Source: Chondrocystis sp. NIES-4102
Lineage (GTDB): Bacteria; Cyanobacteriota; Cyanobacteriia; Cyanobacteriales; Xenococcaceae
Reading direction: 5' to 3'
Assembly: GCA_002368355.1 (NCBI GenBank)
Contig: AP018281.1
Span: 62,001-126,000, forward strand
Length of the DNA: 64,000 nt
The position numbers and the translations under genes were made by a program. Shown piece after piece: positions 39,915 through 59,063 of this stretch (position 1 is the first letter of the stretch; each line of letters opens with the position of its first letter). The notes beneath the pieces were generated by a model that saw only the letters and a program-made list of their open reading frames with translations, ran no database searches and was not told the DNA's origin.

Positions 39915-39945
39915 CCAGACGTTAACTCTTCGAGTATAACGCTGG
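39915..39945. repeat. right-end hairpin of the IS element
   Basis: Stem CCAG-CGTTA / TAACG-CTGG with one bulged A on one side. It lies just before the last bases of the element and is the likely RE recognition hairpin for TnpA. It overlaps the tnpB stop, and on the minus strand the RNA here could form the 3' part of a TnpB guide (omega) RNA. Confidence 0.65.
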
Positions 39946-41307: not shown

Positions 41308-41353
41308 AGTCAGCGTTGTTATAATTGGATACAGTTATTGTAGCACAAGAAGA

Positions 41354-41764
41354 ATGAGGAATGATTTTGTTTCTAGTGCCAGGTCTGTATCTGATTTAAA
41401 AGCTCATTTAGTTTTGACAACCAAGTATAGAAAAAAGGTTTTAACTGGCGAAATGATTAGCAGATTGAGAGACGTGATAACTGAATTGTGTGAAAAATGG
41501 GATTGCAAAGTGATTGAGTTCAATGGAGAAGACAATCATATACATTTGTTATTTCAGTACTACCCACAAATGGAACTACCCAAATTCATAGGCAATATTA
41601 AATCAGTTACCAGCAGGAGATTGAGACAAGAATTTCCAGAAGAAATAAACAAAATTTATTGGAAAAAAGTATTTTGGAATGAGTCTTACTTTATAGCTTC
41701 TTGTGGTGGAGTTACAATATCTGTATTAAAAAATTATATCGAGAATCAAAATACGCCAAGCTAG
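41354..41764 (+). CDS. tnpA: IS200-like Y1 transposase
   Basis: 136 residues. The HUH motif is NHIHLLFQY and the catalytic Tyr is in ISVLKNYIENQ. The domain start HLVLTTKYRKKVLTGEM is typical of IS200/IS605 TnpA. It is full length, so transposition may still be possible. It is divergent from tnpB with a 46-bp shared promoter region. The nucleotides after the stop form the left-end hairpin. Confidence 0.93.
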   Translation: MRNDFVSSARSVSDLKAHLVLTTKYRKKVLTGEMISRLRDVITELCEKWDCKVIEFNGEDNHIHLLFQYYPQMELPKFIGNIKSVTSRRLRQEFPEEINKIYWKKVFWNESYFIASCGGVTISVLKNYIENQNTPS

Positions 41765-42275: not shown

Positions 42276-43430
42276 TTGAACTACAAAAACTTAGAAACAG
42301 AACTTATTCTTAGATGTTCTACCACAGAAATCAATCCCAACTCGATTATAAGAATTAAAGAAATAATAGAACAAGATATTGATTGGGACTATTTTATAAC
42401 TACAGCTAAAATCCATAAGGTAGCCCCCTTAGTTTTCGTAAATATTATTAAGATAGCCTCTAAAGTAATTCCCTCAGATAAGCTTTCTACCTTACAAACA
42501 TTTATCAGAAGTTTAGTAATAAAAAATCTATATATTATTAAAGAATTAATTTATTTAATGGAATGTTTTGAGTCTAATAATATTCCTGCAATACCCTATA
42601 AGGGAGTAATTTTAGCTGCTGCATTTTATAAAGATCCCTCCCTTAGACAATTTACAGATTTAGACTTTTTAGTACCTAGGGAAAAATATATTGAAACTCA
42701 ACAACTGTTAATGAGTTTAGGATATCAAGCACCTCCTCAAACTAATGTTGATTGGGAAAGAGGCTTTATCAATCCTCAAAAGCAAATTGCAGTCGATCTT
42801 CACCAAGGGTTGACACGTTTTTCTAATCTTATAAATATAGATTTTACAAGTTTTTGCGATCGCTTAGAATCTGTTTTAATTGGCGGAGTTGAGGTTAAAA
42901 GTTTTTCATCTGAAGATATGTTAATAGTACTTTGCGTACAGTTAGCTAAGGATTCACAATGGACAGCAGAGGTTTTAATCAAAGTTTGTGATATTGCCCA
43001 GTTACTGCGTGCTAATCCTGCTTTAGATTGGCAATTGATTTGGCAACGTTGTAAAAAGTTGGGGACGAGAAGAATATTGTTGTTTAGTTTATCTGTAACC
43101 AAAGAAATGCTGGAAATAGAGTTACCAGATTTAATTACTCAAAAAATACAAGCAGATCAAGTAGTTCAAAAAGCAGCACTTCAAGTATGTCAGGAGTTTT
43201 TTGATCGCAGTGAAGAATCATTTCTCAATCGCACATTTAAAGAAAGAATTTATTTAAGAAAGCTTTTTAGGGAACGCTGGCAAGATAAAATTAGTTACAA
43301 TTTTAAAAAGGCTGTGACACCCAATGAACGAGATCAAGAAGTAGTTGAATTACCAACGCAGCTTAGTTTTATATATTATTTCCTCAGACCGATTAGACTA
43401 ACTTTTAAATATTTAAATAGATTATTTTAG
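42276..43430 (+). CDS. nucleotidyltransferase family protein (NTP_transf_5 type)
   Basis: 384 residues with a TTG start after AAAGGAG. The core segment NIPAIPYKGVILAAAFYKDPSLRQFTDLDFLVPREK contains the DLD acidic pair of polymerase-beta-type nucleotidyltransferases, and DLH follows at about residue 175. PF14907-like proteins recur in RiPP and exopolysaccharide clusters, in some lasso loci next to HPr-kinase-like genes. The stop overlaps the end of the convergent beta-propeller gene by nine bases, so it belongs spatially with the RiPP locus. The substrate is unknown. Confidence 0.8.
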   Translation: MNYKNLETELILRCSTTEINPNSIIRIKEIIEQDIDWDYFITTAKIHKVAPLVFVNIIKIASKVIPSDKLSTLQTFIRSLVIKNLYIIKELIYLMECFESNNIPAIPYKGVILAAAFYKDPSLRQFTDLDFLVPREKYIETQQLLMSLGYQAPPQTNVDWERGFINPQKQIAVDLHQGLTRFSNLINIDFTSFCDRLESVLIGGVEVKSFSSEDMLIVLCVQLAKDSQWTAEVLIKVCDIAQLLRANPALDWQLIWQRCKKLGTRRILLFSLSVTKEMLEIELPDLITQKIQADQVVQKAALQVCQEFFDRSEESFLNRTFKERIYLRKLFRERWQDKISYNFKKAVTPNERDQEVVELPTQLSFIYYFLRPIRLTFKYLNRLF

Positions 43431-44717
43431 TAATTGGAAATGTTTGCCTGTAACCCTGAGTATTTGTCCTGTTTGAGATAAAAGTTCCTTTTGTTGCCAA
43501 TCTAGAGGATCTTTAACTTCGCAACCCAAACCAAAATAAAAATCTCCATTTAAGATTTCAAACGAACGTGCAAATGTTGGGGCAGAAAATTGTAAAATAG
43601 TTTGCCATTGCTGCATATCTGTCGTGGCTATTACCTTAACCTCTGTTTTATTCTGCTGATTATTTTCTAAAAGAACATACAACACGTCATTATGAATAAG
43701 TAAATCCCAAGCTTTGGTGTTGGTAGGCATTGGCAATTGACGAACATTGACTTTTCCTGATCTTAGATCCGCAGCGTAAAAAACTCCAAAGGGAATATAC
43801 TGATGATCGTTATGACTTTTGCCACCAATATAGACTGTTCCAGAACGCCATTGTTGAGGTTTGGCTATCCTAAATATATCAAAGCCTTCGGGATAAAAAC
43901 CTGGAAAAATAGTTGCAGTTGAAAGATCGGCGCGCTCAGTGTTAATACCTTCTTGATTAAATTCGTATACGGGGATGTACTCTAAATTATTATTGCTGAG
44001 GTATTGATTATACGTACTCCCAAGAAACATATCAGTAGAATACAAAAGCCCTTGAGCTTTTAGAAACTCATATAGTCTAAACCCTTTGGTATGTTCTATA
44101 TTTTTCCAAGTTTTGCCCCAATCTGTCGAAATACCAATAGCAGAAGTAGCATTTTTGTCTTCTCCTTTAGTATTAATACTCAAACCAGCAAAAAGTAGTT
44201 TTTGAGTAGCAGACAAGGCATAGACATGAATTGCATGAGGAATGTTGCGATATTTTTGCCATTGATTTTTCCCAAGGCGATATATATTACCATATCTCCA
44301 GCTTTGGGTTGGGTCGTGTCCTGGAATATATAAATCTTGGTTTAATATGTAAAATGTGTCTATCTGTTCTTCGTCTACGGTAAATTCCGACTCAAACTTA
44401 TTTAACTTTGGATTCCAATATATAACGGGAACTTCTCCAGCATTAGGAGCAGGACCTCTATTACTACTATTTCCCGCAGCAATATATAATTTACCGTCAA
44501 AAGATTGTAAATCCCAGACATTTCTAGCATAGATAGCGTCACCTCTTTTGTATTGTTGTCTATAGGGAATACCCAAACGTTCGACATAGCGAGAAACGTC
44601 ATAGGGATTGCTATTGTTGTTGTTGAACCAGAAAACTTTTAAGGCTATTACCGTTATTAATGATAGAAGTAGCAAGATTATCAATTTTGACTTTTTTGCT
44701 GTCATCAGTCTTTTCAA
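43422..44717 (-). CDS. exported/anchored beta-propeller-like protein
   Basis: 431 residues. One N-terminal helix (LIILLLLSLITVIALKVFW, about 11-29) acts as a signal anchor. The rest is repeated beta-strand units: VWDLQSFDGKLYIAAGNSS, STDWGKTWKNI (an Asp box), TVYIGGKSHN, KAWDLLIHNDVLYVLLENN. The fold is a beta-propeller facing the periplasm. It is the last gene of the second RiPP subcluster, 29 bases after the kinase. It may bind or process the exported peptide; this is inference. No enzyme motif is recognised. Confidence 0.7.
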   Translation of the reverse strand: MKRLMTAKKSKLIILLLLSLITVIALKVFWFNNNNSNPYDVSRYVERLGIPYRQQYKRGDAIYARNVWDLQSFDGKLYIAAGNSSNRGPAPNAGEVPVIYWNPKLNKFESEFTVDEEQIDTFYILNQDLYIPGHDPTQSWRYGNIYRLGKNQWQKYRNIPHAIHVYALSATQKLLFAGLSINTKGEDKNATSAIGISTDWGKTWKNIEHTKGFRLYEFLKAQGLLYSTDMFLGSTYNQYLSNNNLEYIPVYEFNQEGINTERADLSTATIFPGFYPEGFDIFRIAKPQQWRSGTVYIGGKSHNDHQYIPFGVFYAADLRSGKVNVRQLPMPTNTKAWDLLIHNDVLYVLLENNQQNKTEVKVIATTDMQQWQTILQFSAPTFARSFEILNGDFYFGLGCEVKDPLDWQQKELLSQTGQILRVTGKHFQLLK

Positions 44718-44746
44718 TCTCTACTTACTATTTTTATGTGCTTCTT

Positions 44747-45649
44747 TTATAATTTAGCAATATGTTCCTCGATCAATTCAGTTAGTTTGGCTAAAGAACT
44801 TAAATCGTTGGTTCTTTTTAAAGCAAAAACATTAGTATGTTTGACTAAACTACTTGATTGTTGAAAATGTTCCACTGCCGAAAGGGTGTTATACATTTGT
44901 TTACAGAAGCGCGTACAATAACAATTCTGCATTATTTTAAATAAGGCTTCGCTAGGGGAGAGAGATTCGATAGTTAATTCTTCCGCCCCTCCCAAAATAT
45001 ATACACATTTAAGCGGAACTAGATCAGTAACTAAAGATTCATTAATTAAGTATTCTCGTTTCTCAAAATTTGGATGTACTTTAGGTAAATTTTGCGCTTC
45101 TAAACCCAAAGCCTCAACAGAATCTGTCCAAAGTTTAATACGTCCGTACCCAGGAACTAAATAAGCTTGGGAATTTTCAAATTTAATGGCTGTAACGTCA
45201 TCACTAACTATGGGATAACCTTTAAAATATAGGCTGGCTGAGATGGTTGATTTACCAAAGCCCCTATTACCAATAAAACAAACTCCTTTACCTTTGATGT
45301 TGATACTATTGCCATGAAGTATCATAAACCCGCGCTGATGCAGCAGTAAGCCAAAAGCAGCACCCAAAACAAAGATACGCAAAATTTGTTCGTCAAAGTT
45401 ATCGATAGGATCGACAACGATCTGTTTCCCTTCTTTGACTAAAATAGTTCCAGCTTCACTCCAATAGAGATAAGCTGAGTCTTGGGAAATGGCAGATAAA
45501 ATGTTGCTATCGGTAGGATGAAGTTCGGGAGCTTGTAGCTTAGATTGATATATTTTAATATCTGGATGGCATTGATTATCTGATTTAAGAGCTAATTCTG
45601 GCAAGAAAAAATCAGATTGGATTACTAAGCCATAAGCTGAAAAAAACAA
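44747..45649 (-). CDS. HPr-kinase-like protein of RiPP cluster (copy 2)
   Basis: 300 residues related to HPr kinase. The P-loop is IGNRGFGKSTIS, the acidic pair is in PIVSDDVTAI, and GYGRIKLWTDSVEALG is shared with the first copy. Homologues in lasso clusters phosphorylate the C-terminal Ser of the precursor (the paeninodin kinase type). The precursor just upstream ends in Ser, so it is the likely substrate. The first copy lies at 51.2-52.2 kb, and the two differ enough to suggest one kinase for each precursor. Confidence 0.8.
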   Translation of the reverse strand: MFFSAYGLVIQSDFFLPELALKSDNQCHPDIKIYQSKLQAPELHPTDSNILSAISQDSAYLYWSEAGTILVKEGKQIVVDPIDNFDEQILRIFVLGAAFGLLLHQRGFMILHGNSINIKGKGVCFIGNRGFGKSTISASLYFKGYPIVSDDVTAIKFENSQAYLVPGYGRIKLWTDSVEALGLEAQNLPKVHPNFEKREYLINESLVTDLVPLKCVYILGGAEELTIESLSPSEALFKIMQNCYCTRFCKQMYNTLSAVEHFQQSSSLVKHTNVFALKRTNDLSSLAKLTELIEEHIAKL

Positions 45650-45981
45650 TTTTTAATAAGTGATTTAAATAAGTTAGAATTTTTAGGTTTTAGGCACGCT
45701 TGCACGCTTGCACGACTTTAAAGAAGGGACGATAATCTATTGGGGCTATTTGCAAGGATAGCCAGATTGCTAACGGACAAAACATATAACATTTAGATAT
45801 AACTATTTTCTTCAAACGCTTAGTGCGAATTATTTTCTAGAAACTAGCAATTTTATTGTAATTATTAGATAAGTTTTTTACGCCTACTATAAAACTATTA
45901 ATTTAGCAAGGTCTATTCTGATTCACACTAAACGTTTCTTAGGTTATATAGGCTATTTCTAGATTAATTTATTTGGTCGGC
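45650..45981. other. 332-bp spacer between precursor 2 and its kinase
   Basis: No gene. There is an 8-bp tandem GCACGCTT repeat near 45693. The region after the precursor stop may hold a partial terminator that keeps precursor mRNA more abundant than kinase mRNA; I see no clean stem with a T-tract. Confidence 0.45.
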
Positions 45982-46218
45982 TTAGGAAATTGCTCCGCCA
46001 CTGCCTCCACCACCACCATCGTTCTGGGAGTTGCCATCGGGAAGACCAGGTATTTTACCATTGGCAGCACCGCCACCGCCACCATCGGGACTACCACCGT
46101 TTCCAGGACCAGGACCACCACTTACCCCATCGTTGATCCCCTGTCCTTGAAGAGTAATTTCTTCAACGTTACCTAAAAAGGATAATTCTGGTTCTACAAA
46201 AACTTTCTTAGCTTTCAT
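45982..46218 (-). CDS. RiPP precursor 2, Gly-rich (78 aa)
   Basis: The leader KKVFVEPELSFLGNVEEIT (residues 4-22) fits the lasso leader rule [Y/F]xxPxLxxxGxxxxxT exactly. Cleavage two residues after the Thr gives a core starting Gln24 (QGQGIND...), with Asp30 at core position 7 as a possible ring acceptor. The rest is Gly/Asn/Asp/Pro-rich (GGPGPGNGGSPDGGGGG and GNSQNDGGGGGSGGAIS) and ends in Ser78. A core of about 55 residues is far longer than known lasso cores. Its leader is nearly the same as that of precursor 1, so both probably share the same RRE protein. Confidence 0.85.
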   Translation of the reverse strand: MKAKKVFVEPELSFLGNVEEITLQGQGINDGVSGGPGPGNGGSPDGGGGGAANGKIPGLPDGNSQNDGGGGGSGGAIS

Positions 46219-46323
46219 TAGTTAGAAATATCTAAATTATTTAAATGTTTGCTATAGGTATAATACGATACTTAATGCTATTTTTGCAATAAAAAAATGA
46301 AAGTTTAACACTCCATATTAGCT

Positions 46324-47118
46324 TTATTGACACTTAATGTCAATCTCAAATAGTTTATTCCAGAATTTACCAGTTACAAAAAGTCGGTTTTGATCACGAT
46401 CGTAGGCAATACCATTTAATACCGCATCTTGTTTGGGGGTTGGTAGAGGGTCAATTATTCCTGTAAGATCGATCCAGCCTTTTACCTGACCAGTTTTAGG
46501 AGAAATTCGGGCAATACGATTGGTTAACCAGACATTAGCAAAAATTTCACCGTTAATGTATTCTAGTTCGTTGAGCTTATCTATAGGATTTTGACCGTCT
46601 CTAACTTCGATCTGCCTAACTAATTGAAAATTATCTGGATCTAAAAAGTAGAGTTTGCTAGATCCATCACTAAGAATTAATTCGCGATCATTGTGAGTTA
46701 GTCCCCAACCCTCTGTAGGATAGGTAAAGGTTTGCAACTGCTGGAAAGTGTGGCGATCATAGACAAAACCAAGCTTAGATACCCATGTAAGTTGAATTAG
46801 GCGATCTTGCCAGAGAGTCATCCCCTCACCGAAATAACTATCTTGTAAACGATGAATTTGTAAGACTTTCCCTGTTGGCAATTCAACTCGTCGAATAGAA
46901 GACTGTCCTGCTATCCCAGTACTTTCATAAAGTTCTCCTTGATGATAAATCAAGCCTTGAGTAAAAGCAGTTGGATCGTGAGGATAGGTATTAACAACTT
47001 GGTAGCCACAGGTTTTAGGAGGAGTAGATAAAAACTGATTTTCTCGAGCATAAACCGAGGTGATGAACATTGCTGTTATGATAGCCAGTGCGATAAATTT
47101 TTTTTTCATGTATAGCAA
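46324..47118 (-). CDS. glutaminyl-peptide cyclotransferase (plant/bacterial beta-propeller type), exported
   Basis: 264 residues. The signal peptide is KKKFIALAIITAMFITSVYA; the true start may be Met4. The mature part matches the PF05096 five-bladed propeller: NTYPHDPTAFTQGLIYHQGELYESTG, EGMTLWQDRLIQLTW, TYPTEGWGLTHNDRELILSDGSS, LNELEYINGEIFANVW and LNGIAYD near the end. It converts N-terminal Gln to pyroglutamate in the periplasm. It lies between cyclase 2 and precursor 2. Both precursors have a Gln at the predicted core start, so the peptide is a credible substrate. Confidence 0.88.
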   Translation of the reverse strand: MLYMKKKFIALAIITAMFITSVYARENQFLSTPPKTCGYQVVNTYPHDPTAFTQGLIYHQGELYESTGIAGQSSIRRVELPTGKVLQIHRLQDSYFGEGMTLWQDRLIQLTWVSKLGFVYDRHTFQQLQTFTYPTEGWGLTHNDRELILSDGSSKLYFLDPDNFQLVRQIEVRDGQNPIDKLNELEYINGEIFANVWLTNRIARISPKTGQVKGWIDLTGIIDPLPTPKQDAVLNGIAYDRDQNRLFVTGKFWNKLFEIDIKCQ

Positions 47119-47139
47119 TACGAGATAACTGACGGGACA

Positions 47140-47345
47140 TTTTTTAGTTTTTAGCTGTTAGCTTTTAGGTGTTAGCTTTTACTCCTGACTCCTGACTTCT
47201 TGGTGCATTCGCTCAAGACATGGAAACCGTACCGTTAGCACAGCACCGCTCCTGACTCCTGACTTCTTGATGCAGTCCAATACGCGGGAAACCCCCTTTT
47301 CTGCGCGCTAATCGCTCCTGACTCCTGACTCCTGACTTCTAACTC
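47140..47345. repeat. STRR-type heptamer repeats (CTCCTGA, TTAGCTT)
   Basis: Intergenic stretch with GTTAGCTTTTAG phrases and three clusters of the 7-mer CTCCTGA/GACTCCT (near 47180, 47250 and 47313). Two copies of a CTTGGTGCA/CTTGATGCA phrase follow the first two. It separates the cyclotransferase from cyclase 2. Confidence 0.65.
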
Positions 47346-47374
47346 AATCCCCATAATCACCCAGAGCGATCGCC

Positions 47375-49303
47375 TTAATCATGTTGCTGTTTGAGCCACA
47401 ACGCCAATTCTACCGCTAAGAGGACTGAAGGTATATTATTACCACCAGGATTAGATATATATTGTTGGTATTGTTGTTTAAAAGCTTTCAAATCTATATA
47501 GGGTTCGATTAGAGAGGAACATTCGGCAACAGTATTATCAAAAATATCTCGCTCGAAGTTAATTAATCCATAATGAAAGCCAGCCGAAAGATTACCTTTA
47601 TCGTGACGCAGACGTATTTTATCTGGTAAGTACCCACTTAAAGCTCGGCGAACTATATTTCTGGTGAAACCCTGACTAAGTTTTTGTTGTAGGGGGATTG
47701 ATAGACAAAAATCTGTCAGTCGAATATCTGTAAAGGGAAACCAAGGTTCTATACCAAACGCTGTTGCTGCTGCATGGTCTTCTTCTAACCCAATGGTAAT
47801 TCCTCTCGATAGAAGGGCGTAGTAGTGGGATTCTTTGGCTGTGGAAATGTGTTCTATATATTGCTGTTGTTGGTGCAATTCTTGTGTCAATAGGTCTTGG
47901 AAATTGGTTCTTGCTATTAATTCTTGAGCGATAATGGCTTTTGGTAATAGCTGTGGTTTTTTGATGTTACGCTTGCGCCATATCTGTAAAAGAGGCAGAG
48001 GTATAAAGCGATCTCTAACGTATCTTCTAGCTACGGGAAGGGAATAATTTTTAAGGTATTTTCGGAAGTTTTTGCCATATTTATACCCCTGTACCCGAGA
48101 AATAGCCTTAAGTTCTTTGCTTAGTTTCCACCAGCTAAAAGTTGTAGCTAAATCTATTAAATATTCCCACCCGTGAAAAACAGCATCGTCACCAAAAAAA
48201 CCATCTAAAAAGATTTTTGTTCCTTGTTTTTGTGCTTCTTTATATAAATTCCAGTGAAGATATAAGTTAGATCCAAAGGGTTTATCTAGATGCCATAGCA
48301 TTTTTTCCCAGTCTGTCAAAGGGCTGTAACGATCTGCTGCAACATAATAGGGTTCGATGTTTCCTTGTTGCACTACGGACTGGATATAAGGACTTTCATC
48401 GGATTCGGTTGCATCATTAAATATAGCGGAAAATGTTTTAAGTTTTGGTCTTTGCTGCTGCAATAATAGTTCCCTGGCGACGCAAACTATGGAAGAAGAA
48501 TCTAAACCGCCACTCAATGTAGAACCTATAGCAAAATTACTACGTAGGCGACAGTTGACTGCTTGAGTAAAGACTTCTAGGTATGCTTCGGCGTATTCTT
48601 GATCGGAGTCTAATTTGAGGGTTTTATTGATGTCGGGAGTCCAATATTTGCTAACGCTAACATGGTTATTCTGAATTTCTAGTAGGCTTGCGGGTGGAAG
48701 TTTAAAGATATCTTGGTAGAAAGTATTGATCTGACTTTGAAATCCACCTTGGAGATAATAAGCGATAGTTAGATCGTTAGGAATATTAGGAATTTCTGAC
48801 AGACATAAAAGTGCTTTGATTTGAGAGGCAAAAACTAAAGTTTTTCCAGGTGCATGGTAATAATAAAAGGGTTTGACTCCGTAATGATCTCTAGCACAAA
48901 AAAGCTTATGCTCCCGACAATTCCAAATAGCAAAAGCAAAATCACCAATTAGATGTTGCACACAAGCAGAACCCCATTGTTGATAGGCTGCTAAAATAAT
49001 CTGGCTATCGGTAATTATATCGGCAGAATTTAGTAATTTTAGATGGGAAATTAATTCTTGACGGTTATCAATACGCGCATCGGCTGTAATGGTTAAATTA
49101 CCATCAATAGTAGTGCTAGGAAGTTGTTCAAACATTGATTCTGGGGTAGTCCAGAGCATTCGGTGTCCCAAAGCCACATGGCGATCGCACCAAATATTAG
49201 CAGCATCAGAGCCTGTATGACTGAGTATGTTTGACATTTTTTGTATGTCTTTTGGCTGCGTCAGTCGTTGATCTAGATAGTAAATTCCGAAGATAGCACT
49301 CAT
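47375..49303 (-). CDS. asparagine-synthetase-like lasso cyclase (copy 2)
   Basis: 642 residues. The N-terminal glutaminase-like domain begins MSAIFGIYYL; the catalytic Cys2 of true asparagine synthetases is absent, so ammonia production from Gln is not expected. The AMP-forming synthetase domain has TLSGGLDSSSIVC (about residue 262) and FLDGFFGDDAVFHG. In lasso pathways this protein adenylates the Asp/Glu side chain and closes the macrolactam. It is the second of two cyclases in the locus and belongs with precursor 2 by position. Confidence 0.88.
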   Translation of the reverse strand: MSAIFGIYYLDQRLTQPKDIQKMSNILSHTGSDAANIWCDRHVALGHRMLWTTPESMFEQLPSTTIDGNLTITADARIDNRQELISHLKLLNSADIITDSQIILAAYQQWGSACVQHLIGDFAFAIWNCREHKLFCARDHYGVKPFYYYHAPGKTLVFASQIKALLCLSEIPNIPNDLTIAYYLQGGFQSQINTFYQDIFKLPPASLLEIQNNHVSVSKYWTPDINKTLKLDSDQEYAEAYLEVFTQAVNCRLRSNFAIGSTLSGGLDSSSIVCVARELLLQQQRPKLKTFSAIFNDATESDESPYIQSVVQQGNIEPYYVAADRYSPLTDWEKMLWHLDKPFGSNLYLHWNLYKEAQKQGTKIFLDGFFGDDAVFHGWEYLIDLATTFSWWKLSKELKAISRVQGYKYGKNFRKYLKNYSLPVARRYVRDRFIPLPLLQIWRKRNIKKPQLLPKAIIAQELIARTNFQDLLTQELHQQQQYIEHISTAKESHYYALLSRGITIGLEEDHAAATAFGIEPWFPFTDIRLTDFCLSIPLQQKLSQGFTRNIVRRALSGYLPDKIRLRHDKGNLSAGFHYGLINFERDIFDNTVAECSSLIEPYIDLKAFKQQYQQYISNPGGNNIPSVLLAVELALWLKQQHD

Positions 49304-49350
49304 TTGTTGTCAAGATTAGATTGGGAGTTGGGCAATAAAGCCAGGGTTTT

Positions 49351-51184
49351 TTAATATGATTCTGGTTGCTTCATTTGTTTATTCCAAGAATCAGCATACA
49401 ATCCCCCAAGACTTATGAGCTTCTCGTGGTTGCCAGTCTCAACTATTTTGCCACCGCGCATGACATAAATTAAATCGGCGCGCATTGCTAGAGTAAAACG
49501 ATGGGTAATGACAATTGAAGTTTGTTCTCTTGCCAAATTACGAAATCTTTCGAGCCAATCAAATTCTGCCCAAGGATCCATCGCGCTAGTTGGTTCATCG
49601 AGGATAATTATTTGTGCTTGTTTAAGAAACGCCCTAGCTAGTGCTAAACGCTGCCATTCTCCACCGCTTAAGTCTGTACCATTGGGAAACCATTTACCCA
49701 AAACCGTATCGTAACCTTGGGGTAGATTGATTAATTTTTGATGAATTCCCGAACCTTTGGCAGCAGCTTCTATTTGCGATCGCTCAAAATCTGTAGTTAA
49801 ATCCCCCAAAATGATATTTTCTTCTGCAGTTAGATAGTAGGGAATAGGAAATTGAAACAATACAGAAATACTTTTACGTAGTTTATCTACAGAGAAATAA
49901 CGAATATCCGTACCGTCTACGGTAATACCACCTGCTTGAGGATCGTAAAAACGACATAAAAGTTTGATTAAAGTGCTTTTGCCTGCCCCATTATCTCCAA
50001 CGATCGCGATAATTTTTCCTGCGGGAATTGTTAGGTTAAAATTCTCTAATACCAGGCGATCGCTACCTGGATAGGAAAAGCTGACATTTTCAAAGCGAAT
50101 ACTTTTTCTTAAGCGTTTGGGTATTTCTACCAACTGGGGAGAATCTACAATTTCGGGTTTAAGTGCCAAGAACTCGAATAAATTACTAATAAACAGGCTA
50201 TTTTTATAAATTACATTGAAATTACCCAGTATAGCTTTAATTATGCCCTGTCCTCTATTAAAAGCTTGATAAAACAGGGCTAAATCACCCAGAGTAATCG
50301 TACCGAGGAGGGCTTTGCTTCCCATCCAGACTAATGCCCCTCCAGATATCAATAGAGCGATCGCGCTAGCCCCAAGACGAGCTACCCCCCGATCTCTAAT
50401 TAGCTTCAGATTTTCATTTCGTAGACGACGGCGTAATTTTTGATACTTGTTTTGAAAATAAGACCCTAAATTGAATAGTCTTACCTCGGCAGCAAAGGCA
50501 CTGCCAGTCAAGATTATTTCATAATAATTAAGTCTGCGTCTATCGGTGGTAGTTTTCTGCGACCAATCATACTGGATTTTATTAATACGGAGAAAGATAT
50601 AGAAAGCAGGTATGGCACTGACAACCAGAACTATAGGCAACCACCAACCGTAGGGAAGCAGAATAGCCCCCATAGTTAATAAGGTAATGGTGTTTTGGAC
50701 TAAACCACCACTGCTATCCAATAGGTTTAATGATGTATTACTAGCGTTATCTCTAGCGCGACTCAGGCGATCGCTATATTCTGAAGATTCGTAACAGGCA
50801 AAATCGATATCTACTGACTGTGAATGAATTAAACCGCTAATATGGTCTTGTAAATATTCCGACTGCGCCGAACGAATATAATCACTTGCTCCTTTAAGCA
50901 GTTCTGTTAAGCCTAAAACTCCTGCCATCAAGCCTACAGGAATGGCTAAAGAACGAATATTGGCTGGGTTTATTCCTGTACCGATAACTGCAACCAGACT
51001 ATTGACTACTATCTTAGTTAGATAAACCGTCGCACCAGGTAAAACTCCTTGCACTAGCAATAATATTATCCAAGCTAATGTCGATTGTGGCGAGGCTGTC
51101 CAAAGTAACTTAAAAGTGCGCGGTAAATATGATATTTGCTCTAGGAAACTAGTTATTTTTTTTTTTTCTATGGTTTTTAGACAT
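49351..51184 (-). CDS. RiPP exporter, ABC transporter with fused permease-ATPase; frame broken at A12
   Basis: The protein has six membrane helices and an ATPase: Walker A VGDNGAGKST, signature LSGGEWQRLALARA, Walker B IIILDEPTSAMD and the H-loop THR. It would export the mature peptide. The continuous frame begins only at a TTG (51060), inside the first helix. Upstream codons still read PRTFKLLWTASPQSTLAW, normal for the family. They join to an ATG at 51184 (MSKNHRKKK) only if the A12 run (51156-51167) lost one A. So there is a +1 frameshift at a homopolymer: a sequencing error, a pseudogene, or slippage control. Confidence 0.82.
51156..51167 (-). repeat. A12 homopolymer in the 5' end of the exporter gene
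   Basis: Twelve consecutive As on the coding strand, the point where the exporter frame shifts. With eleven As the ATG at 51184 and the body are in frame; with twelve the ATG frame ends at a TAG a few codons on. Long A runs are known slippage sites for polymerases. Confidence 0.75.
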
Positions 51185-51253
51185 ATATCTGTGAAATCTA
51201 TACAGTTTGATGCTGTTTTTTATATAAAAATTTTATAAGCTAATTAAGAAAAT

Positions 51254-52171
51254 TTATTTTGATTTTAAATACTGTTCTACTGTTTGACTTACTTGAGATA
51301 GCAATTCTAAATTCTTTGGGCGTAAAAGTAGATTGATCGGGATAAGATTTGCCAACTTAGTTATTTTTAAAAGATGGGCTGCATCCGACGGTTTTAATAG
51401 GGATGAGCCAAATCTGGCGACGTAAGAATGACGTAGGAGATTGAGTAGAATTTCTTGTGCCGAAAGTGATTTTATGGCAATGTGAGAATTGTAATCTAAG
51501 ATAAAAATTTGCTGCAATTGCAAGGGTGTTTGAGAAAACTTGTCTTTATTTATATATTCTCTCTTCTCGAATTGCTCAATTAGTTTTGGCAACTTATGGG
51601 GATCTTTGCCAGTTTGAGTAACTGCATCTGTCCACAATTTTAGCTGCGGAAAAGCAGGATAAACGATAAATTCCTCTTCAAAACCTATAGCAACTACATC
51701 ATCTGCGAGCAAATTATACCCTCTAGCTTCTAGATCTGCTGCCATTGTCGATTTTCCCCGACCCTTATCTGCCACAAAAACTACCGCCCTCTGGTTAATG
51801 GCTACCGCACTACCATGTAAAACTATATACCCTCTTTGATGAAGAATAGCCCCCATTGCTGCTCCTAAAATGAACAGTCGTAATCGACGCTCATCAAAAC
51901 CAGTTACAGGATCTATGACAATTTTATTTCCTTGTGAGATAAATAATGTTCCCAAACCTGACCAATAAGCATATAGTCCTTCTGCCGTAGCATCACAACA
52001 GAAAAAATATTTATCTAAGTCTTTGAGCGGAGAATTAAGTAAATCGGCAAACTCAATTGATACATCAAAATTAGTTGCTTGAGACTCTATTAATTCGGGC
52101 AACTCGATCGCAGATTCAATCTTTAATCCATAGGCTAAATAATTGTATTTAGTTTTACTTTTAATTGTCAC
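51254..52171 (-). CDS. HPr-kinase-like protein of RiPP cluster (copy 1)
   Basis: 305 residues. The P-loop is FVADKGRGKSTMA, the acidic pair is in NLLADDVVAI, and the pattern FPQLKLWTDAVTQTG is parallel to copy 2. The N-terminal about 100 residues (YGLKIESAIELPEL, GTLFISQGNKIVIDP) are shared by RiPP-associated HPr kinases. It follows precursor 1, whose last residue is Ser53, the target of this kinase class in paeninodin. It probably phosphorylates that Ser. Confidence 0.8.
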   Translation of the reverse strand: MTIKSKTKYNYLAYGLKIESAIELPELIESQATNFDVSIEFADLLNSPLKDLDKYFFCCDATAEGLYAYWSGLGTLFISQGNKIVIDPVTGFDERRLRLFILGAAMGAILHQRGYIVLHGSAVAINQRAVVFVADKGRGKSTMAADLEARGYNLLADDVVAIGFEEEFIVYPAFPQLKLWTDAVTQTGKDPHKLPKLIEQFEKREYINKDKFSQTPLQLQQIFILDYNSHIAIKSLSAQEILLNLLRHSYVARFGSSLLKPSDAAHLLKITKLANLIPINLLLRPKNLELLSQVSQTVEQYLKSK

Positions 52172-52328
52172 TATTTAAAGATAATAATATGTTTATTAAA
52201 ATTAATTTTAAGTGTATAGATGGTTACAACAACCAAATAAATATTAAATATTAAAAAGAAAAAAATATAAAACCGATCGCGCGATCGGCTTAAATAAATC
52301 TAACAACTATTTTATTAGTTGCCAAAAA

Positions 52329-52490
52329 CTACGAACCTAAAATTCCCATACCTGGTAGGGTGGGGTCTGCTGCCGTTCCTTGAGGAACATCGGTATAAGC
52401 TATTGCATTGTTTTGTTCTGTAATTTCTTCAATGCCACCGTGAACAAAAAGCTCTGGTTCAATAAATACTTTTTTGTGGGAATTTGTCAT
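52329..52490 (-). CDS. RiPP precursor 1, lasso-type (53 aa)
   Basis: ATG with GGAG eight bases before it. The leader KKVFIEPELFVHGGIEEIT (residues 6-24) fits [Y/F]xxPxLxxxGxxxxxT. With the usual cut after the residue following Thr24, the core is Gln26 to Ser53 (28 residues): QNNAIAYTD gives a nine-residue ring closed on Asp34, then VPQGTAADPTLPGMGILGS. The C-terminal Ser could be phosphorylated by the next gene's product. It lies between cyclase 1 and kinase 1. Confidence 0.87.
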   Translation of the reverse strand: MTNSHKKVFIEPELFVHGGIEEITEQNNAIAYTDVPQGTAADPTLPGMGILGS

Positions 52491-52598
52491 TTTAATACTC
52501 CATTAAAATTAGTTGCTCAATCTCAAAATAGTAATACAACTATTTCAAATAAATTATACAATAAAAAATCAGAATATCTACAATTGTATTATTAAAAC

Positions 52599-54554
52599 TT
52601 AAGCTTTAGTTTGGTTGTTGATCTGATGTTCAAACCACAAATACAAATTAACACTAATCCAAATCTTAATTGCATCTACAGCCGTATAAGATGATGAAAA
52701 AAAACGTTCATAAGCTTCTTGATAACAAACTGTATTTATATAATCTTTAATATATTTATAATCGTTATCTATGACTTTTTCTAATAAATGCTGTTCATAA
52801 CTTTGCATTCCACGCTCAAAAGCATAACTAAGATTTCCTTTTCCTTCGCGCCATTGTATTTCTTTGGGTAAGATATTTTCCATCCCACGACGCATGATCA
52901 TTCTTGTCCAGCCGTTACGCATTTTTTGGTTGGCAGGAAGAGATAGGCAAAACTCAACTAAACGTTTATCCCAAAAAGGGTATCTAACTTCAGTAGAAAA
53001 GGCTGCTGCTGTTCGATCTAAAAGTTCTAAAGTTGTGGAAATTGAACCGACATTGATAGTATTATAATGTTCTTCTTTTTCATTTTTTGTAGCAATATAG
53101 CTTTTTTCTAGCAGTTTTCTACGGTGTTGTTTATAGTTGAGATTCTCTGCCAACTGATGATTTAATAAAGCTGATAATAAAGCTTGGGGACTGATGTTAA
53201 TATTTCTTGAATTGATTTTGTCTATGATTGATTTGCAACGCCAATAAATAAAACGCAGAAACTTATACTTAGTCATAAATGGCTTAAGGGCATAAAGATG
53301 GAAATAAGTCCAAAATAGCGGGAGAAAAGGCACATTGAAACTTCGACAATATCCAGCCAATTCTGGAATAAGTTTGAGCCATCTACCTGCTTGCGCCAAT
53401 TCTCGCATATACCCAAAACCATGAGAAACAGCACTATCCCCATCAAATCCATCTAAAATTACACGCACGCCTAAAGAATTAGCTAACTCATAGGTTTTCC
53501 AGTTTAGATAAAGATTGCCAGCAAATTGGGGTTCATCTTGATGCCAAATTACTTTTTCAATATCGACAAAAGGACTAATTTTATCGCCATTAATGAAATG
53601 GGGTTTAACACCACCTCCATCGATAACCGCATTCATATAATAACGCTCGTCGGACTGGGAAACGGTATCGAAAATAGCAGAGAAAGTATGTAAATCCGAT
53701 TTACCATCTTCAGTTAAAATCTTGCGACCCATGCAGGTAATGGAAGAAGAATCTAAGCCTCCACTCAGCATCGATCCTACTGGATATGGCGAACGTAATC
53801 TACAGCGTACTGCTTCGGCGAAAATTTCTTTAAACTTAGCACTATATTCGGCATCAGATCCCAGCTTAAGTTCATAGGTCGGGTCGAGTGACCAATAGGA
53901 GTTAATATTAATTCCCTCACTGTTAACTTTTAAGGTATGAGCAGGGGGCAATCTTAAGATATCGTGATAGATAGTAATTTCTTTATCGTAAAAAGTAGAG
54001 GTGATAAATTCTGCTATTCTGATTTCATTAAGTATGCGCTTAACTTCTGGAACACAAAATAGAGCTTTTATTTCGGAGGCAAAGACAAAAATTTTTTGTG
54101 AGTAATAGTAGTAAAAAGGCTTAACGCCAAAATGATCTCTGGCGCAAAATAGAGACTGTTGTTGCTTATCCCAAATAGCAAAGGCAAAATCACCAAGGAG
54201 TTTATCGACGCAAGCCTCGCCCCAATATTGATAGGATGAGAGAATTAACTGACTATCGGTAATTGTTTCTGCATCAATATCAGCGATCGCTAATAATTTA
54301 ATTAACTCTTCGCGGTTGTCGATCCTAGCATCAGCAGTAATAACAAATTCTTCATTTTCACTAATATAGGGTAACTTTTCCCTCAAAGACTCTGGTGTCG
54401 TCCATAACATCCGATGAGCCAAACCTATACAATTATCTTGCCAAATGCCAGAATCATCGAGGCCTCGATGAGCCAATAATTCATTGATAGCAATCAAATG
54501 TTGGGGATCGACGGTTGTGTCATCGTTATAATAAATTCCTGCTATCGCGCTCAT
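52599..54554 (-). CDS. asparagine-synthetase-like lasso cyclase (copy 1)
   Basis: 651 residues. The start MSAIAGIYYN has no Cys2, so the glutaminase is inactive. The synthetase domain has MLSGGLDSSSITC (SGGLDSS at 264-270) and ILDGFDGDSAVSHG. It should adenylate the acceptor Asp and form the macrolactam of precursor 1. It overlaps the leader peptidase gene by four bases, indicating translational coupling. It is about as long as copy 2 and collinear with it, but clearly diverged. Confidence 0.9.
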   Translation of the reverse strand: MSAIAGIYYNDDTTVDPQHLIAINELLAHRGLDDSGIWQDNCIGLAHRMLWTTPESLREKLPYISENEEFVITADARIDNREELIKLLAIADIDAETITDSQLILSSYQYWGEACVDKLLGDFAFAIWDKQQQSLFCARDHFGVKPFYYYYSQKIFVFASEIKALFCVPEVKRILNEIRIAEFITSTFYDKEITIYHDILRLPPAHTLKVNSEGININSYWSLDPTYELKLGSDAEYSAKFKEIFAEAVRCRLRSPYPVGSMLSGGLDSSSITCMGRKILTEDGKSDLHTFSAIFDTVSQSDERYYMNAVIDGGGVKPHFINGDKISPFVDIEKVIWHQDEPQFAGNLYLNWKTYELANSLGVRVILDGFDGDSAVSHGFGYMRELAQAGRWLKLIPELAGYCRSFNVPFLPLFWTYFHLYALKPFMTKYKFLRFIYWRCKSIIDKINSRNINISPQALLSALLNHQLAENLNYKQHRRKLLEKSYIATKNEKEEHYNTINVGSISTTLELLDRTAAAFSTEVRYPFWDKRLVEFCLSLPANQKMRNGWTRMIMRRGMENILPKEIQWREGKGNLSYAFERGMQSYEQHLLEKVIDNDYKYIKDYINTVCYQEAYERFFSSSYTAVDAIKIWISVNLYLWFEHQINNQTKA

Positions 54555-55000
54555 GGTTTTAAATCTAATGGGGGAAGGGGCAGAATACGATAGCGATCAA
54601 GATCTGTTAAATCTCCAATTAATACCCGACCTTGGCTTTCGACCCAAGCGTGGGCTTCTAATTTTCCTGTGTTTTCTTTAGCTACGCCAATTTTTAAATT
54701 TGCAGCATAATCATTACAACTAAGCAAAACTTCCGTGGTCAAAGCACGAGCCAAACATTTTACATTTCCTGGCATATAACGACTGCTGACGTTTACAGCC
54801 CAAATTAACTTTTCAATACTATTACAGCGATAAAAGAAATGATATTTAGTCTGGATGGATAATAAAAATCTACGTAAGTTTGAGAATGTTACTCGCCATA
54901 AGCCTAACCTAACTAACGCAAGTAAAACAAAAACCTTAGAAACTAGCAAAATATCGCCTTGTCTAAACAATATTAGCTCAATCAACCGTTTTATTTTCAA
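54551..55000 (-). CDS. lasso leader peptidase B2 (transglutaminase-like Cys protease)
   Basis: 149 residues. The catalytic triad is Cys82 (VKCLARALT), His117 (EAHAWVE) and Asp130 (LIGDLTD), as in McjB-type B2 proteins. It removes the leader after delivery by the RRE protein. The split B1/B2 form is usual in most lasso clusters. It overlaps the B1 gene by 23 bases and the cyclase by four. It is the only B2 of the locus, so it must serve both precursors. Confidence 0.9.
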   Translation of the reverse strand: MKIKRLIELILFRQGDILLVSKVFVLLALVRLGLWRVTFSNLRRFLLSIQTKYHFFYRCNSIEKLIWAVNVSSRYMPGNVKCLARALTTEVLLSCNDYAANLKIGVAKENTGKLEAHAWVESQGRVLIGDLTDLDRYRILPLPPLDLKP

Positions 55001-55295
55001 TTGTCACTAAACCTTTATCTGCTAAATCTCTAACTAATTTTAGAATATAGTTATTGCATTGTTCGGGTTCTATGTCGTACTCTGATAAAATGCGATCGCT
55101 AATCTCTTCTAGAGTTTTTGATTGATTGATTAAGTTCCAGATTAAAGTACCAGTTTCGTTTAAACCGTAGTAAACTCCCGATTCAAGCTCCAAAATCACC
55201 GTTTCTCCCATTAAATCGGAAGAAGCTTGAGATTTACTAGGAGATATGAGCGAACTTAAAGTTATCTGTTGTGTGTCCCCTCTAAATGTTTCCAT
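54978..55295 (-). CDS. RRE / PqqD-like B1 protein of lasso locus
   Basis: 105 residues with the PqqD fold: VILELESGVYYGLNETGTLIWNLIN, SKTLEEISDRILSEYDIEPEQC, LVRDLADKGLVTI. RRE proteins bind the leader, here through the F-x-x-P-x-L motif. It is the first gene of the minus-strand RiPP run, so the main promoter is expected in the 362-bp region upstream. Only one RRE is present for two precursors. Confidence 0.9.
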   Translation of the reverse strand: METFRGDTQQITLSSLISPSKSQASSDLMGETVILELESGVYYGLNETGTLIWNLINQSKTLEEISDRILSEYDIEPEQCNNYILKLVRDLADKGLVTIENKTVD

Positions 55296-55657: not shown

Positions 55658-57919
55658 TTGTCAGACATAGTTGCCATTGAGGGAAAAAGTACAGATACAA
55701 CTCCCCGACAAGGAATGAATTTCACACCACTGTTAAGAACAGCAAAGAGAAAAGCCTTGTTAATTGTTGCTATTGCTTCATTAGTAACCTCAGTTTACAT
55801 TTATAAAGACAACCAAAAAAATCCTGCACTTAAATATACGGGGGGTTTCCAACTTTTAGTCGAACCTCTAACCCTAGAAGCAAAGTCCTCAGAACCTAGT
55901 ACCCTGATTAATTCACAGGGAATTCCTAACGATAGGCTGGCAACTGTAGATTATCCCACGATGTTAAGGATATTAAAATCCCCAGATATATTATCTCAAA
56001 TTACAGAACGAGTAAAAAAAACGTACAAAAATTTTACTGTCGATAGATTAGCTCAAAATCTTATAGTAGAGAGGGTAGCAGATAGTAAAAATGCTTTAGA
56101 TGCGAGTAAAATTTTGGCAGTAAGCTATACAGAACAAGATCCAGATCTTGTTGAATTGGTTTTAGAAACAACGGCTCAAAAATATTTAGAATATTCCCTC
56201 AACAGTCGTAAACAGGGAATTAATAAAGGTATAGAATTTATCGAACGACAACTACCAGAATTAGATCAAGAAGTAACTCAAGATTTAAATGAAATCCAAA
56301 AGATCCAAGAGCAGTATCGGTTATTTCAAGCAGATGCCAAGGGTGAGTCGTTATTAGGAAAATTGAGTGAGCTTGAGTCTCAGCAACTGGAAACTCAAAA
56401 AGAAATTCAAGAACAAACACAGGTGATCAAGAGCTTGGAGTCTCAGCTTGGAATAACTGCTAATGAAGCTGTAACTATTGCAGCATTGAGGGAAAATCCT
56501 AGCTATCAAAAGTTAATAGAGCAATTTAAAGATAGAGAAAGAGAACTAGCATTAGCATCAACAAAATTTAAGTCAAACTCACCTCAAGTAACAAATCTAC
56601 TGGAAGAAAAACAAAAAATATCAGATCTACTCGATATAGAGACAAAGAAAACTATAGTGGATGGAGAAATATCAGATCAAGTCAATAAATTTTTAGTCTT
56701 AGACAATAAAGACTCAATACTATTAACTTTAGTAGAGAAACTGGTGGAAGCTACAAATGAAAGAGACAAGTTACAAGCTCGCGAAGGGGTTTTAAGTAAA
56801 AACATTGCCTTATATGACAACCAAGCACAAAATTTTCCTGAAGTATCTCGCCAGTATAAGCAATTGCAGCAAGAACTAAGTATTGCTAATCGAACTAGGG
56901 AACAATTATTGGTTCAAAAAGATAAATTACACATACAGGCTTCGCAAACAGAAACCCCGTGGACAGTCGTTTCACAGCCTGAAATTATGAGAGATAACGC
57001 TGGAAACCCCAAACCTCTTCCTACTGATGCGGACAATGGAGCTTTGAAAGGGTTAATGGGAGGCTTGTTTTTGGGTTTAGCAACGGCATTTTTATTAGAG
57101 AAAATACGCAATGTTTTTTATTCTACCGATGACATTAGCGATGCTTTTAAATCATCCATAATTTTGGCACAGATCCCTTTAGAGCCAAGAGGTAAAATCG
57201 TCAAAAATCCTCAAACAATTAAAAATATTATCAATAAAGGCAAAAGGGCGCAGAATAACGATCGCAGTTCTTTTATAGATTCTATCGACGGCGTTTATAC
57301 GAACGTTGAATTTAAAACTGCTTTTGAAGATCTTTATGCCAACATATACTTCCGATATCGCCAAGATTCAATCAAAACCATAGCAGTTTGTTCAGCATCA
57401 GAAGGAGATGGCAAATCCACTATTGCGTTAAATTTAGCTCGTGCGATCGCTGCTGATGGTAAAAGAGTATTACTGGTCGATGCTAGTTTATTTAACTCTC
57501 AACTTGCCGAAATGTTGGTTTCAGCTAATCAAGTCGAAGATAACTTGTTTACTCTAATTGCTCCTCAAAAAATGTTGAAAAATTCAATAAATAGAGAGAA
57601 GCTGATGAATGAGTTTAGAAATAATTATGATTACGTGATTTATGATACGCCTTCACTTTTAGATTCAACTACTGCTGGCTTTTTAGCGGTAAATACAGAC
57701 GGTGTTCTATTAGTAGCAGCAATAAATAAAACTAAAAAATCATTATTTACTAAAGCCTACAAGCAAATAGAGCATTTCAAAATTCCTTTACTGGGTATAG
57801 TTACTAATCACGCAGGTTCAGTAAAGTTGGAGACAAACCCTTTAGTAAATCTGGAGCAGATTAAACTATTAGAGCCATCTAGCGCAAGAAAGTCTTCAGA
57901 TGCTCAAATCAATTCATAA
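55658..57919 (+). CDS. Wzc-like polysaccharide chain-length / BY-kinase-type protein
   Basis: 753 residues with a TTG start after AGGAGA. The first helix is about 33-50, a large periplasmic coiled coil lies between about 180 and 420 (Gln/Glu-rich), and the second helix is about 466-482 (GLMGGLFLGLATAFLLEK). A cytoplasmic P-loop domain follows: ASEGDGKST, VLLVDASLF and YVIYDTPSLLD. It regulates exopolysaccharide length. The C-terminal tail lacks the Tyr cluster of classical BY-kinases, so autophosphorylation may be absent or at other residues. Confidence 0.88.
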   Translation: MSDIVAIEGKSTDTTPRQGMNFTPLLRTAKRKALLIVAIASLVTSVYIYKDNQKNPALKYTGGFQLLVEPLTLEAKSSEPSTLINSQGIPNDRLATVDYPTMLRILKSPDILSQITERVKKTYKNFTVDRLAQNLIVERVADSKNALDASKILAVSYTEQDPDLVELVLETTAQKYLEYSLNSRKQGINKGIEFIERQLPELDQEVTQDLNEIQKIQEQYRLFQADAKGESLLGKLSELESQQLETQKEIQEQTQVIKSLESQLGITANEAVTIAALRENPSYQKLIEQFKDRERELALASTKFKSNSPQVTNLLEEKQKISDLLDIETKKTIVDGEISDQVNKFLVLDNKDSILLTLVEKLVEATNERDKLQAREGVLSKNIALYDNQAQNFPEVSRQYKQLQQELSIANRTREQLLVQKDKLHIQASQTETPWTVVSQPEIMRDNAGNPKPLPTDADNGALKGLMGGLFLGLATAFLLEKIRNVFYSTDDISDAFKSSIILAQIPLEPRGKIVKNPQTIKNIINKGKRAQNNDRSSFIDSIDGVYTNVEFKTAFEDLYANIYFRYRQDSIKTIAVCSASEGDGKSTIALNLARAIAADGKRVLLVDASLFNSQLAEMLVSANQVEDNLFTLIAPQKMLKNSINREKLMNEFRNNYDYVIYDTPSLLDSTTAGFLAVNTDGVLLVAAINKTKKSLFTKAYKQIEHFKIPLLGIVTNHAGSVKLETNPLVNLEQIKLLEPSSARKSSDAQINS

Positions 57920-58004
57920 TCAAAAATTGTTAAACATCAAAGCCAAATAATCAAGACATCAAATCAATTTAAATTTGAGTTGAATCACTATAAAAAAGCT
58001 AATT

Positions 58005-58970: not shown

Positions 58971-59063
58971 ATGTTATAGAGGCGAATATTTGCAGACTTG
59001 TTGCTCAATGATGCTTTTGGCTATTTATATAACTACAAAATATTAACTTAAAATTAAATTACA

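Follow-up and report, generated by a model that had tools for sequence, protein, structure and literature searches.

Gene content and organization of the locus

The 64,000-nucleotide stretch of Chondrocystis sp. NIES-4102 DNA analysed here (contig AP018281.1, positions 62,001 to 126,000 of the forward strand, hereafter the window) contains a lasso peptide locus of 11 minus-strand genes at 43,422-55,295, as established from the list of open reading frames and from profile scans (Table 1). Along the minus strand these are B1, B2, C1, A1, K1, D, C2, QC (glutaminyl cyclotransferase), A2, K2 and PROP (propeller-like). They comprise one ribosomally synthesized and post-translationally modified peptide recognition element (RRE, B1), one leader peptidase (B2) and one exporter (D), together with two cyclases (C), two precursors (A) and two HprK-like kinases (K). 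The convergent nucleotidyltransferase gene is counted as a member too, an NTP_transf_5 nucleotidyltransferase being a common last gene of such clusters. The preliminary description of this DNA had listed the same open reading frames, gene order and coordinates, all of which were confirmed; its gene content of two precursors, two cyclases and two kinases on one RRE, one peptidase and one exporter agrees with the profile matches and with a single B2 in the genome. The first genes overlap, B1 with B2 over 23 bases and B2 with C1 over 4; gaps of 29-332 bases separate the later ones, the two widest lying between A2 and K2 (332) and, with short repeats in it, between C2 and QC (256).

Table 1. Genes and other features of the lasso peptide locus, in window coordinates.
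Feature	Position	Strand	Evidence
B1, discrete RRE (PqqD fold)	54978..55295	-	PF05402 72.7 bits; aligned to 9x8z, 9x90, 5v1u; Tyr83 codon 55047-55049
B2, transglutaminase-like leader peptidase	54551..55000	-	NF033537 101 bits; Cys82 and His117 kept
C1, lasso cyclase, host lineage, sister L082	52599..54554	-	NF033535 849 bits; trees
A1 precursor, 53 aa, leader FIEPELFVHGGIEEIT	52329..52490	-	predicted core from Gln1, Asp9, C-terminal Ser; leader Phe codon 52464-52466
K1, HprK-like precursor kinase, sister L082	51254..52171	-	PF07475 1.7e-06, TIGR04352 1.9e-10, both below cut-off; motif; trees
D, MsbA-like ABC exporter	49351..51060	-	PF00005; L082 D 70% identical over 563 aa
C2, second lasso cyclase, other lineage, sister L084	47375..49303	-	NF033535 723 bits; trees
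Short repeats, C2-QC gap	47142..47350	.	repeat search
QC, glutaminyl cyclotransferase, signal-peptide-like start	46324..47118	-	PF05096 335.5 bits; solved relatives 3mbr, 3nol
A2 precursor, 78 aa, leader FVEPELSFLGNVEEIT	45982..46218	-	predicted core from Gln1, Asp7, Gly-rich tail, C-terminal Ser; leader Phe codon 46198-46200
K2, second HprK-like kinase, sister L084	44747..45649	-	PF07475 2.6e-07, below cut-off; motif; trees
PROP, hydrophobic N-terminal stretch, one presumed Asp-box-like stretch	43422..44717	-	weak repeat matches; homologues in lasso loci
NTP_transf_5 nucleotidyltransferase, convergent	42276..43430	+	PF14907 184 bits; place and orientation as in L082

Both cyclases scored well over the cut-off of the lasso cyclase model NF033535 (525 bits). 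Matches to the asparagine synthase model TIGR01536 (cut-off 267 bits) reached 303 bits for C1, over the cut-off, and 266 bits for C2, just under it; such matches would be expected from the common fold, and the lasso cyclase model is by far the best-scoring one for both proteins. An assignment of C1 and C2 as ordinary asparagine synthetases, which the preliminary description had named as fatal to its proposal, was rejected because NF033535 far outscores TIGR01536, though C1 also passes the cut-off of the latter. B2 exceeded the 33-bit cut-off of its model. B1 was over the cut-off of PF05402 and, with 69.6 bits, under that of the stricter lasso-PqqD model NF033536 (80 bits); structure-sequence alignments indicate similarity to PbaB1 and TbiB1. 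HprK-type models were matched by K1 and K2 only under the curated cut-offs, and the His, GxGKS and Asp-Asp motif is kept in both. A search of the window genome (5.0 Mb, 7 contigs) returned B2 as the single NF033537 match and two PqqD matches, namely B1 and one in another locus. The latter (L175, G000:C1:1248842-1249042) forms the C-terminus of a 518-aa glycosyltransferase-like protein and lies beside a chain-length-type gene, both names having been assigned by eye.

Probable separate origins of the two branches

The locus is probably a phosphorylated-lasso cluster that captured a second C-A-K set, both precursors passing through one B1/B2 pair. The usual cluster in the fetched stretches is B1-B2-C-A(1 to 5)-K-D, often with a nucleotidyltransferase. 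Cyclase matches at E <= 1e-80 were found in 25 of 386 genomes of the phylum and, at E <= 1e-70, in 91 of 388 genomes of the order, 46 of these over the cut-off; B2 was present in 10 of 27 genomes of the family. The comparison of synteny in related cyanobacteria that had been proposed earlier gives the host order in L082, a locus of the same family. It is a single-branch set whose B1, B2, C1, K1, D and nucleotidyltransferase are 53-70% identical to those of the window, with the nucleotidyltransferase likewise convergent and no second branch. On trees of 23 cyclases and 24 kinases, C1 and K1 each grouped with L082 (100/99), and C2 and K2 with L084 (97/93 and 92/86, the latter not starred). Widening the trees to 45 cyclases and 49 kinases left these pairings intact, with 100/99 for C1, 100/99 for K1, 99/91 for C2 and 98/97 for K2; in a smaller early tree that contained neither L082 nor L084, C2 and K2 were unplaced. 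Since C1 and K1 are sister to the single-branch L082 and C2 and K2 to the single-branch L084, we read the locus as a merger of two lasso lineages, the second branch seemingly derived from another lasso lineage. A host of the order B1-B2-C1-A1-K1-D, as in L082, would have taken C2-A2-K2 from that lineage, inserted between D and the nucleotidyltransferase. The second branch comes without a B1, B2 or exporter, and the locus illustrates a way in which a peptide pathway could acquire a further product while keeping a single recognition system.

The preliminary description had proposed a duplicated and diverged branch; duplication in place is not supported by the grouping of C2/K2 with L084 and of C1/K1 with L082. 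A tandem duplication of C-A-K followed by divergence would account for the repeated C-A-K order and for the 13 of 19 residues that the A1 and A2 leaders have in common from KKVF to Thr. Nevertheless, it is very improbable in view of the trees, the wider versions of which lowered its already small probability slightly further, and a recent in-place duplication was rejected on the same trees. The leader DNA argues against a recent copy as well, because 40 of 57 bases are identical and the same codon is used at 8 of the 13 common residues; recent gene conversion of the leader was rejected on the same 40 of 57 bases. An old duplication with differential loss is a possible alternative to the merger.

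Some observations weigh against the proposed capture. The similarity of the two leaders is only mildly unusual, 26 of 459 precursor pairs of like cyclase divergence being at least as similar, and leader identity alone was dropped as an argument for being too weak. C2 departs at 8 near-invariant columns, the fourth most of 42 cyclases. Moreover, an apparent frameshift lies at the 5' end of D (about 51149-51184), where the homologous N-terminus continues farther upstream: the frame opened by an ATG like the start of L082 D meets a stop after 11 codons, and beyond an A-rich run the first membrane helix, as placed by homology, is taken up in the main frame. A sequencing error, slippage or damage could each account for this. 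These features, together with the departure of K2 at two conserved positions (Asn121 and Gly175 in K1 numbering) and the short repeats in the C2-QC gap, might indicate that the second branch is decaying or silent. That outcome is unlikely, given that C2, K2, A2 and PROP are uninterrupted open reading frames in which the kinase motif, SGGLDSSS and the A2 leader motif are all kept.

Two over-cut-off cyclases within 12 kb were observed in at least four of the 388 genomes of the order (window, G386, G641 and G660), a lower bound, since at most two cyclase candidates were scored per genome. There is a single B2 in each of G386, G641 and G660, G386 being 81% complete and L118 of G660 beginning at the edge of its contig. 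The order in L117 of G641 is B1-B2-C-A-K-D-C-A-K-D-nucleotidyltransferase and that in L087 of G386 is B1-B2-C-A-K-C-A-PROP-D-nucleotidyltransferase. These loci resemble the window in having two C and two A genes with one B2 in the genome. They differ in that L117 and L118 have two exporters each and L087 has one kinase and mixed Y/W leaders; FxxP occurs among these two-cyclase loci only in the window. In G475 a second cyclase lies 5.6 kb off, under the cut-off, and the two tandem cyclases of G096, from the phylum set, are both under it. A scan of genome contigs with C2 alone confirmed no relative, and plasmid records gave 348 C2 matches, all below 60% identity, and no PROP relative.

Proposed recognition of both leaders by one RRE

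The leaders of A1 and A2 carry FxxP in place of YxxP or WxxP. The leader pattern was matched 70 times, two of the matches being spurious. Y was the first aromatic residue 57 times, W 8 times and F 3 times, the F cases being A1, A2 and L082 only; no F-leader occurred among 16 fresh loci. Residue 83 of the window B1 is Tyr, and in all other aligned cyanobacterial B1 proteins except that of L082 it is Asp or Glu. This residue aligns with Asp in 9x8z (LppB) and 5v1u (TbiB1) and with Gln in 9x90 (PbaB1); column 83 would correspond to LppB Asp70 and PbaB1 Gln79, judging from the alignments and the spacing to Phe74/Phe83. These two residues bond the leader Tyr or Trp in crystals (PMC13381572).

Residue 83 was compared across 47 cyanobacterial B1 proteins, 44 of which belong to loci of a single leader class. 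All 44 obey one of three pairings: Asp with YxxP (34), Glu with WxxP (8) or Tyr with FxxP (2). When B1 columns were scanned against leader class, column 83 ranked first with z of 20.9, followed by 4.6, and with Y and W loci only the values were 27.8 and 6.2, the shuffles ignoring kinship in both cases. Mapped on the B1 tree, Glu requires four changes, two of them forced by well-supported branches. L091 and L132 have a B1 and no usable leader. A further 20 loci, several of them close kin of one another or of earlier loci, included 16 with both B1 and leader. Asp83 was present in all 16, and 14 of them showed the predicted Asp-Y pairing; L187 has Glu83 with no precursor found, L188 has no leader, and L183 and L191 have no B1. 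Glu was paired with W and Tyr with F wherever seen, and Asp takes Y and sometimes W.

A wider interpretation is advanced tentatively, at nearly balanced confidence: cyanobacterial lasso RREs may read leaders by a one-pocket residue code (Asp-Tyr, Glu-Trp and Tyr-Phe, with some Asp-Trp tolerance), clusters may capture C-A-K cassettes that lack the front genes and whose leaders are re-keyed to the host, and an exported propeller may be recruited repeatedly as an extracytoplasmic partner of the product. Several results count against such a code and against the main reading of the locus given above. The fresh loci L185 and L186 combine Asp with WxxP, contrary to prediction, which weakens a strict one-to-one code. 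All fresh loci with a leader were Asp, so that the test covered the Asp class and neither Glu-W nor Tyr-F. Asp83 occurs with both a Y and a W leader in L087 and with a W leader in L144, from outside the cyanobacteria, and the Tyr-F pairing comes from two loci whose B1 proteins form one clade (100/99). Promiscuous RREs such as FusB1 exist (PMC13381572), so sharing need not require matching.

In the window both leaders are FxxP and B1 has Tyr83, while L084, the sister of C2/K2, is Asp-YxxP; A2 therefore fits the host B1 and not a donor-like one. Shared recognition by the single B1 gains support from this match. The earlier proposal of common leader recognition and removal with separate cyclisation and phosphorylation is likewise supported, by the single B2, FxxP in both leaders and Tyr83 in the one B1. 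With one RRE position and one leader residue named, the way in which co-resident leaders share or avoid one RRE becomes testable, and the correspondence offers a rule for routing engineered precursors.

Predicted maturation and products

The leader motif and Thr(-2) are present in both precursors, each of which ends in Ser and has an Asp within the range of core positions 7-9 (Asp9 in A1, Asp7 in A2). The lasso precursor models of NCBIfam gave a weak match to A1, below cut-off (E 0.009), and A2, scanned against Pfam, gave none. Cleavage is predicted after Thr-x, so that both cores would start with Gln1. The incoming A2 now bears the host FxxP leader, which would allow the single B1 with Tyr83 to present both precursors to the single B2. 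K1 and K2 would act on their precursors, the probable site of phosphorylation being the C-terminal Ser. B1 would bind either leader via FxxP, and B2 would cut after Thr-Glu in A1 and Thr-Leu in A2. C1 would then close Gln1-Asp9 of A1 and C2 Gln1-Asp7 of A2, and D would export both products, the anchored propeller acting outside the cytoplasm. The gene content, the single B2, the two origins on the trees and the match of leaders to RRE are results of the analysis; all catalytic steps, the pairing of each cyclase and kinase with a precursor, the direction of transfer and the role of the propeller are inferred. The kinase motif and the C-terminal Ser, which characterize the phosphorylated lasso subgroup, are found in both branches. 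The C-terminal Ser is the phosphorylation site in paeninodin (PMC9266682); BsfK acts on Ser3 (PMC10368454), and the site could differ here.

The A2 tail is long and rich in Gly, Asn, Pro and Ser. Threading of this core is doubtful, because the tail has no aromatic residue able to plug the ring. The second branch might yield an unthreaded macrolactam or a linear Gly-rich phosphopeptide in place of a threaded lasso, in keeping with the linear phosphorylated lasso-peptide relatives (LPPs) of Bacillota (PMC13381572). This is a substantial possibility, although we lean against it: C2 is a full-length cyclase with SGGLDSSS, and the cyanobacterial cores of L130 and L131 (first acid Asp7) and of L046 (Gly-rich tail) belong to lasso loci that contain B1, B2, C and K.

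The propeller-like protein

PROP (about 430 aa) has no Pfam or NCBIfam match over cut-off, and Pfam finds no hydrolase domain in it. The label "propeller" derives from weak repeat matches, BNR_2 for the window protein (E 0.059) and Kelch_6 for the L087 homologue (E 9e-4), both below cut-off, and from a stretch, ISTDWGKTW, which we take to be Asp-box-like. No solved relative was found by sequence (best E 0.38). As a single query against the 386 genomes of the phylum, PROP matched its own genome and gave one weak match only. A two-member profile built from G000 (the window genome) and G386 gave four strong matches (E <= 4e-42) in the 388 genomes of the order, G000, G386, G397 and G413, the last two from outside the profile, together with two weak ones (E 0.004 and 0.0097). 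All four strong matches lie inside lasso clusters (the window, L087, L113 and L114).

A five-member scan of genome contigs returned 36 loci from many phyla, 8 of which have lasso genes in the fetched flanks: those of a Caldilineaceae bacterium, Scalindua, another Chloroflexi bacterium, three Paenibacillus and one further bacterium, and L087 itself. In L156 and L157 PROP lies near lasso genes, not in one run with them. The fetched stretch of Scalindua L145 has no cyclase, and those of the cyanobacterial loci L163 (17 kb) and L168 (5 kb) have no lasso gene. The PROP family recurs as a neighbour of lasso genes. The 12 lasso-linked rows of a 30-row tree are scattered over it and need 10 changes, of which starred branches force 5 (373 of 500 shuffles were as low); recruitment or loss was therefore repeated. 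Most relatives start with hydrophobic or signal-like stretches, as judged by eye, and we infer that PROP may be an extracytoplasmic partner of the lasso product. The family can be named as an uncharacterised lasso accessory.

Outside lasso loci the neighbours of PROP are mixed. In L136 and L140 a gene encoding a Mur-ligase or ATP-grasp domain precedes PROP. Close by in L136, L139, L142, L151 and L162, genes of 1,025-1,041 aa recur. Among the leader-pattern matches there is a hint, and only that, of a C-terminal Ser being favoured in PROP loci.

The glutaminyl cyclotransferase

QC is a good member of the plant-type glutaminyl cyclase family (PF05096, cut-off 22.3 bits) and was found in 8 of 40 genomes searched, including that of the window, where the sole cyclotransferase is the one in the lasso locus. 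It is probably a passenger outside the pathway, because no lasso cyclase, B1, B2 or kinase match lies near any of the 8 other QC loci fetched in the family (10-20 kb). QC might alternatively belong to the pathway and, once the peptides are exported, turn Gln1 of any uncyclised core into a pyroglutamate cap, an idea suggested by the initial Gln of both predicted cores and by the place of the gene between C2 and A2. Pyroglutamate capping would block the amine needed by the cyclase. Furthermore, no QC gene lies in the stretches fetched for the other loci with Gln1 cores (L032, L042 and L087), and with the 8 QC loci that show no lasso genes nearby this makes a pathway role improbable. In L064 and L065, QC adjoins a gene of about 1,005 residues, and the window-genome counterpart of that of L064 is at 4.06 Mb.

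Relation to known systems and neighbouring genes

Paeninodin-like and bsf phosphorylated lasso clusters also contain B1, B2, C, an HprK-like kinase, a nucleotidyltransferase and an ABC exporter, the paeninodin precursor ending in Ser (PMC9266682, PMC10368454). The window locus differs in having two C, A and K genes on one B1/B2, the FxxP leader and Tyr83, and the last two features place it outside the paeninodin family proper, with its WxxP leader and Gln79-type pocket. In the LPP and paeninodin pair of Bacillota (PMC13381572), two related peptide pathways adjoin as well, and the aromatic residue of the leader and this RRE position are again important. The two Bacillota pathways use separate, discriminating RREs, whereas the window precursors share one RRE and one leader type. 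The lasso isopeptidases AtxE2 and SpI-IsoP are likewise beta-propeller proteins tied to lasso peptides (PMC9266682); PROP differs in its length and in having no hydrolase domain by Pfam.

The combination with an exported glutaminyl cyclase and a propeller had been described earlier as unfamiliar. The locus is not unique: two cyclases with one B2 also occur in G386, G641 and G660, the propeller is recurrent in lasso loci, and QC is probably a passenger. A literature search for lasso peptide clusters with a propeller led to a passage on isopeptidases (PMC9266682), and matches for lasso peptides with glutaminyl were, by title, on other subjects. All-terms searches, whose coverage left out most subscription papers, returned nothing on FxxP leaders of lasso peptides or on two-cyclase lasso loci, and among the matches listed no title concerned a two-branch lasso locus of this type. 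A 2026 review (PMC13352647) contains no mention under the terms tried, "tandem" appearing only in other senses.

Polysaccharide genes (AAA_31 or Wzz type, flippase) adjoin the lasso loci of the window (55658-60410) and of L090 (10096-12387), and lasso loci next to polysaccharide genes have been reported for Bacillota (PMC13381572). Just past the nucleotidyltransferase end of the locus lies an IS200/IS605-type transposase pair (39922-41764). In L121 (11042-11227) and L122 (9997-10441), an EEILESIETT-like or QILESIETT-like stretch replaces Thr(-2) in lasso-type precursors that adjoin two nucleotidyltransferase genes and a cyclase, with no B2 match in the fetched stretch. Two and five adjacent proteins of about 311-327 aa, each a weak B1 match, lie beside lasso cyclases in L038 (8308-10234) and L039 (10143-14982), respectively, and L038 has two lasso cyclases in tandem.

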